Positions 59,458 through 63,088 of a stretch of DNA of 64,000 nucleotides are shown here, piece after piece; position 1 is the stretch's first letter, and every line of letters starts with the position of its first letter. A model generated the notes under the pieces. It made no database searches. It saw nothing but the letters and a program-made list of their open reading frames with translations, and was not told the DNA's origin. The stretch is taken from assembly GCA_020432045.1 (NCBI GenBank), contig JAGQHB010000045.1:1-64000 (forward strand), in the 5' to 3' direction. Position numbers and translations under genes: made by a program. Source of the DNA: Dehalococcoidia bacterium (lineage in GTDB: Bacteria > Chloroflexota > Dehalococcoidia > Tepidiformales > Tepidiformaceae).

Positions 59458-59721
59458 GTGAAGACGACCTTCGACCTCCCGGACGACCTGGTGTGCGCTA
59501 TCAAGCTTCGTGCGGTGCTTGAGGATCGGAAGCTGAAGGACCTGATGGCGGAGCTCTTGCGGCAAGGGTTGTCGGCGCCGGACAGAGCGGCGGCGGCGCG
59601 TCGGGTGCAGGTACCCCTGGTGCGATGCGTACATAGCGCGGCCGCAGACGAAGAGATGACCCCAGATAGGGTCGCGGCGGTGCTGCTGGAAGAGGAAGCG
59701 CACGGCGCCGGCCGCGAGTGA
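59458..59721 (+). CDS. VapB-type ribbon-helix-helix antitoxin
   Basis: 87 aa, GTG start. The N-terminal KTTFDLPDDLVCAIKLRAV is a ribbon-helix-helix DNA-binding motif. The C-terminal region would neutralise the toxin. Its stop overlaps the start of the PIN gene (GTGA), the usual antitoxin-first order. Autoregulation by the upstream inverted repeat is likely. Confidence 0.88.
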   Translation: MKTTFDLPDDLVCAIKLRAVLEDRKLKDLMAELLRQGLSAPDRAAAARRVQVPLVRCVHSAAADEEMTPDRVAAVLLEEEAHGAGRE

Positions 59722-60164
59722 GCGGGTACCTCTGCGACGTCAATGTCTGGCTGGCGTTGGCACTCTCCGGGCATGCCCATCACAAGGCGGCTCGAACGTG
59801 GCTGGACAGCATTGACGCGGCGGCGAGCATCTTCTTCTGCCGGCAGACACAACAGTCGTTGTTGCGACTCCTGACCAACCCGTCCGCCCTGCGCCCGTAT
59901 GGCATCGATCCACTCTCGAACGCGGACGCGTGGAGAACCTACGAGGCGTTCCTGGGCGATGACCGTATAGAGCTGAGGACGGATGAGCCGGCCGGATTGG
60001 AGCGAACGTGGAAGGCGTTCGCGATCAGAGGGTTGGCCTCGCCGAAGCTGTGGATGGACGCGTACCTTGCGGCGACTGCTGTAGAGGGCGGGTACCAGAT
60101 GGTGACCACCGACGCAGCATTTCGTCAGTTCCCGGGGATCGACCTCGTGTTCCTCGGGTCCTAG
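59718..60164 (+). CDS. VapC-type PIN-domain toxin
   Basis: 148 aa, GTG start coupled to the antitoxin. The PIN acidic residues are CDVNVWLAL (first Asp), RQTQQSLLRLL (near the second Glu position), PKLWMDAYLAA (Asp) and TTDAAF (Asp), a VapC RNase pattern. Its stop shares CTAG with the NuoG-like gene on the other strand. Confidence 0.88.
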   Translation: MSGYLCDVNVWLALALSGHAHHKAARTWLDSIDAAASIFFCRQTQQSLLRLLTNPSALRPYGIDPLSNADAWRTYEAFLGDDRIELRTDEPAGLERTWKAFAIRGLASPKLWMDAYLAATAVEGGYQMVTTDAAFRQFPGIDLVFLGS

Positions 60165-63088
60165 TGGCTGACGGCGGGCTCCATGGTCTTCGCAGCGGCC
60201 ACCCAGGCTTCGACCTGTTCCGCTGACGGGGCTGCCCGCTGGCCAGCGGCGGCGGTCTCCGCGAGCTTCACGTGGAGGTTTTCGGGGCGGCGGCCTCCGA
60301 GCTCCTTCACGGTGTCGACGCCCGCATCTTCCAGCAGGTCGGCCAGTTCAGCGGTGACGCCGGGGACGCGCATCAGGTCGGCGCGGTTCACCCATTCGAG
60401 GACATCAGAAGCGCTTATTCCGTCGATGCGGGCTGCCAGCTCCTTGCGCCCATCCGGGCCTCCGCACTGGTCGAGCAGCTCGCGCAGCCAGTGGATGCCG
60501 AGGGCGGCGAGCTTCGCTGCCATTTCCTCGCCGGTAACCTGGGCGATATCGCCAAGGGCCTGGCCCGCCATACGGCCGACGAGGCCCTGCGGGCCTGATG
60601 GCGCGGCAGCCACGGACTGCAGAGCAGCGGACGGCGTGGCCAGCATTTCACCGGCGCCGATCGTCACGGCCGGGATGGACCTCCCGCCGAATAGGGCGGC
60701 GATAGCCCCACCCTGGAGGAGGCTGGAGGCGTAGACGGTTCCTTCGCGGACGCGCTCGGTGACCGTGATATGTGCGCGGACGCTGGCCGTGCCAGCGCCG
60801 ATAGCGACTTCATCGCCGGTTTTGAGGCCCAGCCGTTCGGCGTCCTCTTCGCTCACCTGGATGCGGTCGTAGCGATGAAGCTTCTCGGCTTCTGGGTGGC
60901 GCAGGGCAGCGGCATCTGCCGCTGTGTAGAGGTCTCGCGAGGTGACGACCCGGAGGCCGCCGGCAACTGCCGCTGCGGCAACGGGGACGATCGTGCCTTT
61001 GCCTGAGCCGGCGAGCGCCGGGCGCGTACCCTCGCCGATCAGGAGGTTCCAGGCCTCCAGGTAGTCCGGGTTAGCCTTCGCGATCTCACCTAGCGCGGCA
61101 TCGGGTGAGGCGGGGAGTTCCAAACCAAGGGCGGCGCCAAGGGCGCCGAGCACGGAGAACAGGTCCCGGGCATCTCCCTCGGGCACGACGGCGGGAGCGG
61201 TCTTCTGAATGCGATGGTCACCGACGGTGTACGTGCCCGCTGACGCATAGGCACGGCCCTCGGCGAGGACGACGGATGCCCGCCTGGCAGTGGCGCTGAG
61301 GACATTGTCAATGGCAACGATTGTCCCGATGCCTTCAAGATCGGCGGCCGCCAGGGGGAGGCGCATCGTCGGGTCGTCGCGGACGACGAGGAGGCCGGCG
61401 AGGCCTTCCAGTGGGTTCTCAGAACCGGCCGTGGCGACGCCCTGGTCAAGGAGTCCGTGGATGTTGACCTCCGCGGGGAGGACGACAAGGTTTTCAGACG
61501 CTTGATTGCCGAAGAGAGCGACCGCCACGTTGGCGGCGCCGCCGGCCATGGCACCGGCCGTTTCAGGGCTCACCGGGTTGGGGGCACAGACGACCAGTGT
61601 TTGATCGCGCGGGGCATCCTTGAGGAGCGCGGCGGCAGCAGCGATATCGGCGTCGTCTGAGCGGCCCGAGTTAATGGCGTCAGCGAGCGCCGCGGCCATC
61701 TGGCCTTCCTCGCCACCGTTGGGTCGGAGCCACGCGGCTGCAAAGTCGACGAGCTCACTGCGAAGCGAGCCGATGACTACGAGCTTTGCGCCACGACGGA
61801 CGACGGCGTCTTTGATCCGGACGGAGGCTACGTTGTGGCTTTCTTCGAGGTCGTCGTGGACGAGGACGATAGCTCTCGCGTCCTTGATGCGGGTCATGTC
61901 GCCAGCGGCCTTGCGTGAGCCGAGGCGGGCTTCCAGTGAAGTATTGACGGAACGGACGACAGGGCCGAGCGAGCTATCGGCGCCACCCTTGAACGCAGAT
62001 GAGGCAATTCGGGAGGCGAGCAGCGCCTCTTCGTTGGTGACGGTGGCGCCAACAAGGACGCCAACCTTGCCTTTGCCCGCAGCTTCCTTGAGTGCCCGCG
62101 CGGCTTCGGCAACGGTTTCTTCAAAAGTCGAAGGAACCTGGATAGCGCCGCGCCGGATGGAGTGCCTGGAAAGGCGTTCGCGGGGCTTCAGCGAGTCGTA
62201 GTGGTAGCGCCCGCGGACACAGATCTGGTCGCCACTGACGGGGTTGCCGTCGCCGGGGCGGACGAGCACGCCGCGACCATCGCGCGAACCGAGCGAGATG
62301 CTGCAGCCGATAGCGCAGGAGTCGCAGGTGGTCGTGGTCCAGGTATCCGGCTTGGAAACCCACTTATTGGGATGTTCCATGAGCGCGGCTGTGGGGCAGA
62401 CGTCGATGCATGCCCCGGAAAAGTCGCAGTTGGAATCGTGGATTGCGCCGCCCGCGCCAAAAGCGATCTGCGTGTCCCAGCCGCGGCCACCAAGCGTGAT
62501 GGCGCCGGTGTGGCGCTTGTCTTCGCAGGCGCGCTGGCAGCGGGTGCAGATGATGCACATCTGCGGGTCGAACTCCATGAATGGATTCGCTCGGTCGGCC
62601 AGAGGCTGCGGCGACTGGTACCAGGAACGCTCTTCACCGACCCACGGCTCGTAGCCCGACATGCCGACGGCTTCGCACGTGGCCTGGAGTTCGCAGCGGT
62701 AGTTTTTCGAACAGGTGAGGCAGCGGTGGGTGACGACATCGTCGCGGAGGCAGATGTCGCCGGGGTGGCAGTGTTCGCGGCGATGGCAGGTGAGACAGCG
62801 GTCGCTGTGGTTGGCGAGGATGATCGCGATCACGGCCTTGCGGGCGTCCTTGACCTCGTCGCTCTCGGTAGTGACGGTCATTCCGTCCTGGACCGTGCTG
62901 GTGCAGGCGAGCTGGAGCCCAGGAGGGCCCTGGATATCGACGAGGCAGCTGCGGCAACCGGCGTAGGGTTTGAGGCCGTCGATGTAACAGAGCGCGGATG
63001 TGTAGACGCCGTTGTTTTTGAGCGCTTCTACGAGGGGAGCGCCATCGGGCGCCTCGAATGTCCTGCCATCAACGGTGATTGTTGCCAT
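60161..63088 (-). CDS. NuoG-like iron-sulfur/molybdopterin-fold protein with C-terminal HhH domain
   Basis: 975 aa. The N-terminal [2Fe-2S] uses C34, C45, C48 and C62. Next, H94, C98, C101 and C107 form the usual NuoG His-Cys3 [4Fe-4S] motif; a second RCLTC-type copy follows (C123, C126, C132, with H121 and C138), which is unusual. A ferredoxin-like pair follows (CIICTRCQRACE, CIDVCP), then CDSCAIGCSI with the last Cys in QICVRGR. The molybdopterin-type region (about 300-800) lacks an obvious catalytic Cys/Sec. Residues about 842-975 are a DUF4332-type HhH domain, paralogous to the 5699-6103 protein. Probably an electron-transfer subunit of a complex I-like or formate-dehydrogenase-like enzyme. 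Confidence 0.9.
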   Translation of the reverse strand: MATITVDGRTFEAPDGAPLVEALKNNGVYTSALCYIDGLKPYAGCRSCLVDIQGPPGLQLACTSTVQDGMTVTTESDEVKDARKAVIAIILANHSDRCLTCHRREHCHPGDICLRDDVVTHRCLTCSKNYRCELQATCEAVGMSGYEPWVGEERSWYQSPQPLADRANPFMEFDPQMCIICTRCQRACEDKRHTGAITLGGRGWDTQIAFGAGGAIHDSNCDFSGACIDVCPTAALMEHPNKWVSKPDTWTTTTCDSCAIGCSISLGSRDGRGVLVRPGDGNPVSGDQICVRGRYHYDSLKPRERLSRHSIRRGAIQVPSTFEETVAEAARALKEAAGKGKVGVLVGATVTNEEALLASRIASSAFKGGADSSLGPVVRSVNTSLEARLGSRKAAGDMTRIKDARAIVLVHDDLEESHNVASVRIKDAVVRRGAKLVVIGSLRSELVDFAAAWLRPNGGEEGQMAAALADAINSGRSDDADIAAAAALLKDAPRDQTLVVCAPNPVSPETAGAMAGGAANVAVALFGNQASENLVVLPAEVNIHGLLDQGVATAGSENPLEGLAGLLVVRDDPTMRLPLAAADLEGIGTIVAIDNVLSATARRASVVLAEGRAYASAGTYTVGDHRIQKTAPAVVPEGDARDLFSVLGALGAALGLELPASPDAALGEIAKANPDYLEAWNLLIGEGTRPALAGSGKGTIVPVAAAAVAGGLRVVTSRDLYTAADAAALRHPEAEKLHRYDRIQVSEEDAERLGLKTGDEVAIGAGTASVRAHITVTERVREGTVYASSLLQGGAIAALFGGRSIPAVTIGAGEMLATPSAALQSVAAAPSGPQGLVGRMAGQALGDIAQVTGEEMAAKLAALGIHWLRELLDQCGGPDGRKELAARIDGISASDVLEWVNRADLMRVPGVTAELADLLEDAGVDTVKELGGRRPENLHVKLAETAAAGQRAAPSAEQVEAWVAAAKTMEPAVSH

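Follow-up and report, generated by a model that had tools for sequence, protein, structure and literature searches.

A DUF4332 domain fused to the C-terminus of a NuoG-type complex I subunit in a few Tepidiformaceae genomes

In the window, the whole stretch of 64,000 nucleotides analysed here from a Tepidiformaceae genome (Chloroflexota), we identified a NuoG-like protein carrying a DUF4332 domain at its C-terminus, and a separate gene for a free DUF4332 protein (Table 1). The fusion, though rare, is real. Its host is most readily understood as the only NuoG of the genome, the [Fe-S]-rich peripheral-arm subunit of NADH:quinone oxidoreductase (complex I). With confidence evenly balanced for and against, we propose that the fused domain, tethered to the peripheral arm, makes contact with protein rather than serving as a tether to DNA.

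Table 1. Features of the window discussed in the text.
Feature	Position	Strand	Description
NuoG-like subunit, 975 aa	60161..63088	-	Domains in order: Fer2, NADH-G 4Fe-4S, Fer4_Nqo3, Molybdop_Fe4S4, molybdopterin, MoCo-binding, linker, C-terminal DUF4332
C-terminal DUF4332 (double helix-hairpin-helix-like), residues ~851-975 plus stop	60161..60538	-	
Ala/Pro/Gly-rich linker, about residues 812-850	60539..60655	-	Predicted disordered
NuoI-like 2[4Fe-4S] ferredoxin subunit, 157 aa	63098..63571	-	Lies immediately upstream of NuoG, a pairing conserved in the family
Free DUF4332 protein, 134 aa	5699..6103	-	Both hairpins with GxG, KKLVRR loop intact
HerA/DUF87-type ATPase, 758 aa	3320..5596	-	Downstream of the free DUF4332 gene

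The fusion and its host protein

DUF4332 (Pfam PF14229) was recognised in the 975-aa protein at residues 851-967 (E 3.9e-29; 101.7 bits, gathering cut-off 23.2) and in the free protein at residues 8-128 (E 5.7e-42), and a search of the genome revealed no DUF4332 copy beyond these two. A BLASTP alignment of residues 853-975 with residues 11-134 of the free protein gave 52% identity across 125 aa (E 1e-35), the fused C-terminus aligning end to end with the free protein except for the first ten residues of the latter, and the motifs LEWVNR, DLMR, AGVDTVKEL, RRxxNLH and AxAKTxxPAV were common to both. The kinship of the two regions, first noticed in the initial annotation, was thereby borne out by a profile search. 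The C-terminal region is correctly assembled, the same architecture recurring in genomes G016, G019 and G030 and on contig PQAJ01000177, and the four other fused proteins scored 93-106 bits against PF14229 (Pfam). A mis-assembly or contig chimera as the source of the fusion was ruled out by the same architecture in five independent assemblies. The initial annotation had also regarded a DUF4332 domain on a NuoG-type subunit, accompanied by a free paralogue, as non-standard, and close orthologues indeed lack the domain. A gene resembling PIN-domain toxins, preceded by a small partner gene, lies at 59458-60164 in convergent orientation to the NuoG gene, the stop codon of which it overlaps by 4 bases.

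The body domains were assigned with Pfam, and the ligands for N1b, N5, N4 and the Fe4S4 cluster of the molybdopterin fold are present (Cys 34/45/48/62, His94-Cys98/101/107, Cys178/181/184/231 and Cys255/258/262/290), so that both domain set and ligands are those of a NuoG. Solved NuoG and FdsA chains matched the body in sequence and fold searches, and a fold search with the model of the whole protein, of which the N-terminal 300 residues are poorly predicted, confirmed a NuoG/FDH fold. The score against the NCBIfam NuoG equivalog TIGR01973 was 213.9 bits, below its cut-off of 470, and by that model the protein is 'NuoG-like'. Named relatives of the protein belong to Tepidiforma, Tepidiformaceae and other Dehalococcoidia bins of Chloroflexota. 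An identity as formate dehydrogenase alpha subunit was rejected, as the Mo-ligating Cys/Sec and its neighbouring His are absent (ADSSLGPVVRS as compared to DTCARVCHS in FdsA) and the genome has an FdsA of its own (contig C12), which keeps VDTCARVCHS and adjoins NuoE- and NuoF-like genes. Besides this FdsA, the 975-aa protein is the sole NuoG-type protein in the genome.

The complex I genes of the genome are scattered over several contigs, and we therefore infer membership of the 975-aa protein in one complex from gene content. In the operon on contig C20, NuoC, D, H, J, K and M were identified and NuoI is missing between H and J; a second operon (contig C108) has its own NuoI, and NuoF is located on contig C89. 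The NuoI-NuoG gene pair recurs across the family, and this conserved pair, the operon without NuoI and the missing formate-dehydrogenase active-site Cys together argue for a NuoG. The simplest reading of the gene content would be that the pair completes the complex I of contig C20. In Chloroflexus, second complex I gene sets are likewise scattered, one of them lacking nuoG (PMC3150298).

A further feature of the NuoG body lies at 62675-62809 (residues 94-138), where an N5-type Cys motif occurs twice in tandem (H94, C98, C101, C107, then C113, C123, C126, C132, C138). This duplication is near-invariant among 24 orthologues and, judging by the sequence, may provide NuoG with one extra Fe-S cluster.

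Distribution and origin of the fused domain

A survey of 61 genomes of relatives found the NuoG body in almost every family member. After 813-824 residues, about 25 orthologues terminate at a normal stop and have no DUF4332, and fused proteins of 965-985 residues occur in 4 of the 38 Tepidiformaceae genomes sampled (G000, G016, G019 and G030), a count that leaves out the NuoG of G027, which breaks off at residue 794 where contig C235 ends. The Tepidiforma genomes surveyed are without the fusion. A fifth fusion was found on contig PQAJ01000177.1 (L071), labelled Holophagae bacterium FeB_10, as part of a Tepidiformaceae NuoI-NuoG pair; since its NuoG body is 94% identical to that of G030 (KLAP124), the Holophagae label or binning is wrong. 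The initial annotation had named homologues without the domain in related genomes as a finding that would count against it, and most relatives do lack the domain.

Scans of 393 genomes from the class, and of samples of 400 from the phylum, detected no further NuoG-DUF4332 fusion, the domain there being free or attached to unrelated partners; across the phylum it is widespread (126 of 400 genomes sampled), mostly as a free protein. Most of the other long open frames with DUF4332 that we checked have the look of non-coding read-through ahead of a free gene, and plausible real fusions among them are limited to a 4-TM protein, an XRE-type regulator and a large membrane protein. Two loci of other Chloroflexota (L170:2000-3433 and L171:2024-3382) encode a multi-helix membrane protein that has DUF4332 at its C-terminus and also contains a long stretch rich in Ala and Asp, and in a genome of the same class (G301, L175:3457-4404), which has three further DUF4332 matches, the domain is fused to an XRE-type helix-turn-helix regulator.

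In the domain tree, the five fused copies formed one clade (99/95) that lies beside the free copies of the family and is separate from the copies of other Chloroflexota. A derived Trp (GI-x-WL) unites the fused copies, the free ones differing at this site, and the stretch RVPGVTAELADLLE is identical in the fused domains of G000 and G030. Monophyly of the fused NuoG bodies was rejected (AU p 0.007), and a tree of the last third of the body likewise did not unite the fused genes. Since the fused domains form one clade and the NuoG bodies do not, DUF4332 was gained once on NuoG, after which either repeated losses or a transfer between genomes through 3'-end exchange followed. Some direct support for such recombination comes from the nuoG 3' end of G030 and FeB_10 (loci L006 and L071), where linker and DUF4332 stand out as a divergent island between well conserved flanks: third-position differences were 0.08-0.40 per 50 codons in the body and 0.38-0.59 in linker and domain, and the 3' flank is again about 90% identical.

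Proposed function of the fused domain

In some Tepidiformaceae, a DUF4332 copy related to the free gene of the family is joined to the C-terminus of NuoG by a linker, and we propose that it would serve on the peripheral arm as a tethered protein-protein contact, either adaptor or stabiliser, and not as a DNA tether. In the full NuoG model, residues 814-842 have a pLDDT under 50 and the DUF4332 domain reaches about 86-94, and the linker of about 30-45 residues is predicted to be disordered; the fused DUF4332 is thus modelled as a folded domain on a flexible tether. The model of the free protein (pLDDT 96) has eight helices, and its halves resemble HhH-type domains of the RadA/RAD51 N-terminus, Pol-theta/Hel308 and NusA AR2 with Z about 6-7, a weak resemblance that is silent on function. 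NusA AR2 is an HhH domain known for protein contacts.

The fused domain is under purifying selection. Its dN/dS was 0.11-0.46, as compared to 0.08-0.28 for the body and 0.13-0.73 for the linker where estimable, these values being rough as synonymous sites are near saturation in most pairs; in the closest pair (G030 and FeB_10) the domain gave 0.11 at a dS of 0.96. None of the five fused copies has a frameshift or stop, and the core LEW[VA]NRADLMR...AGVDTV[KR]EL is conserved in them. Such constraint is not expected of a passenger, that is, a read-through or recombination accident tolerated on the exposed C-terminus of NuoG and being lost without consequence; furthermore, no convincing relics of a lost domain were found downstream of the unfused nuoG genes. 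Nevertheless, the patchy distribution, with fusions in only 4 of 38 family genomes plus FeB_10, makes such an accident a serious rival, and it gains further ground from the repeated loss or exchange needed to account for fused bodies that are not one clade and from the faster evolution of the domain than of the body (82% and 94% identity, respectively, in the closest pair). On balance, we consider it rather unlikely. The same patchiness indicates that the enzyme works without the domain, and hence that any contact made by it is dispensable.

The partner in the proposed protein contact may be a second subunit of complex I, a different complex or the free paralogue. In E. coli, the tails of NuoB, NuoF and NuoI and the G-loop of NuoG are lineage-specific extensions that stabilise the peripheral arm (PMC8357420), and by this analogy a stabiliser within the complex would be the most economical guess. 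A pairing of the fused domain with the free or another DUF4332 protein, by which complex I would be docked to the partner of the free protein, seems improbable to us. It would fit the presence of a free copy in four of the five genomes with a fusion, when free copies occur in only 12 of 61 relatives, and the core residues shared by both kinds of copy, but we saw no sign of dimerisation by DUF4332, our search of FeB_10 turned up the fusion and no free copy, the free genes do not adjoin respiratory genes, and the hairpins and loop are where fused and free copies differ most. The free gene is paired with the HerA/DUF87-type ATPase gene also in genome G023, and in genera g8 and g13 a ketopantoate-reductase-like gene lies near the free copy instead.

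That the module links a redox enzyme with DNA or RNA, as the initial annotation had suggested, found no support in a comparison of the 5 fused copies with 42 free ones. The GxG of hairpin 1 is present in 40 of the 42 free copies and that of hairpin 2 in 37 (all 42 having G-x-G/A), and the basic loop KKLVRR in 40, features that are common in free members but constitute no formal family criterion. All three are lost from all five fused copies, the loop by deletion, and these copies are acidic (net charge -4 to -9, pI 4.5-5.1). DNA binding by the fused copy is therefore unlikely as judged from its residues, the loss of GxG lowering the chance of it while still being compatible with some. The loss of the DNA-facing features, with the helical core retained, argues against contact with nucleic acid and for contact with protein. 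Although the free copy matches HHH_5 (Pfam) and its fold resembles domains of RadA and Pol-theta/Hel308, we regard a nucleic-acid role of the fused domain as very improbable, and in other Chloroflexota DUF4332 is found on a membrane protein as well. Equally remote, in our judgement, is a docking of complex I on a defined cytosolic partner, whether nucleic acid or the free DUF4332 protein together with the HerA-like ATPase encoded beside it, which, if true, would physically link respiration and a DNA-handling machine.

Comparison with known systems

Within the literature searched, DUF4332 appeared in one paper, as a neighbour of heliorhodopsin genes and with no function attached, and we retrieved no account of complex I subunits bearing either DUF4332 or HhH domains. 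HhH-type extensions are said to occur on some alphaproteobacterial NuoE proteins; if true, these would be a precedent that lowers the novelty of the NuoG fusion. The fusion is reproducible and we found no prior description of it in that literature, yet it is built of known parts and confined to few genomes of one family. Its interest lies in showing that, inside a single bacterial family, a core complex I subunit acquired a complete free domain and that the recruited copy lost its nucleic-acid features, and for the otherwise undescribed DUF4332 family it would hint at protein contacts rather than only DNA.

The 975-aa protein resembles NuoG/Nqo3 (2fug_3, 7nz1_G, 8e9g_G) in its Fer2, NADH-G 4Fe-4S and Fer4_Nqo3 domains and in a molybdopterin-type body without Mo active site, but differs in the C-terminal DUF4332 on a disordered linker, the duplicated N5-like Cys motif, a score below the NuoG equivalog cut-off, and a gene that is paired with nuoI apart from the other nuo genes. 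The best solved sequence matches to its body are from the NAD-dependent formate dehydrogenase FdsA (6tg9, 9wxb), whose active-site Cys-His it lacks, whereas the separate FdsA of the genome has VDTCARVCHS. The fused domain is like the free PF14229 proteins of Chloroflexota in having a double HhH-like domain over its full length and 52% identity to the free copy of the same genome, and unlike them in lacking both GxG hairpins and the KKLVRR loop and in being acidic. Finally, as with the E. coli NuoB/F/I tails, the NuoG G-loop and Thermus Nqo15 (PMC8357420), extra taxon-restricted sequence, in some cases on NuoG itself, has been added to the peripheral arm. In contrast to those short tails, loop and separate subunits with known contacts, a whole domain was recruited here on a flexible linker and its contact is our proposal, making the fusion a small natural case of how supernumerary complex I parts arise.
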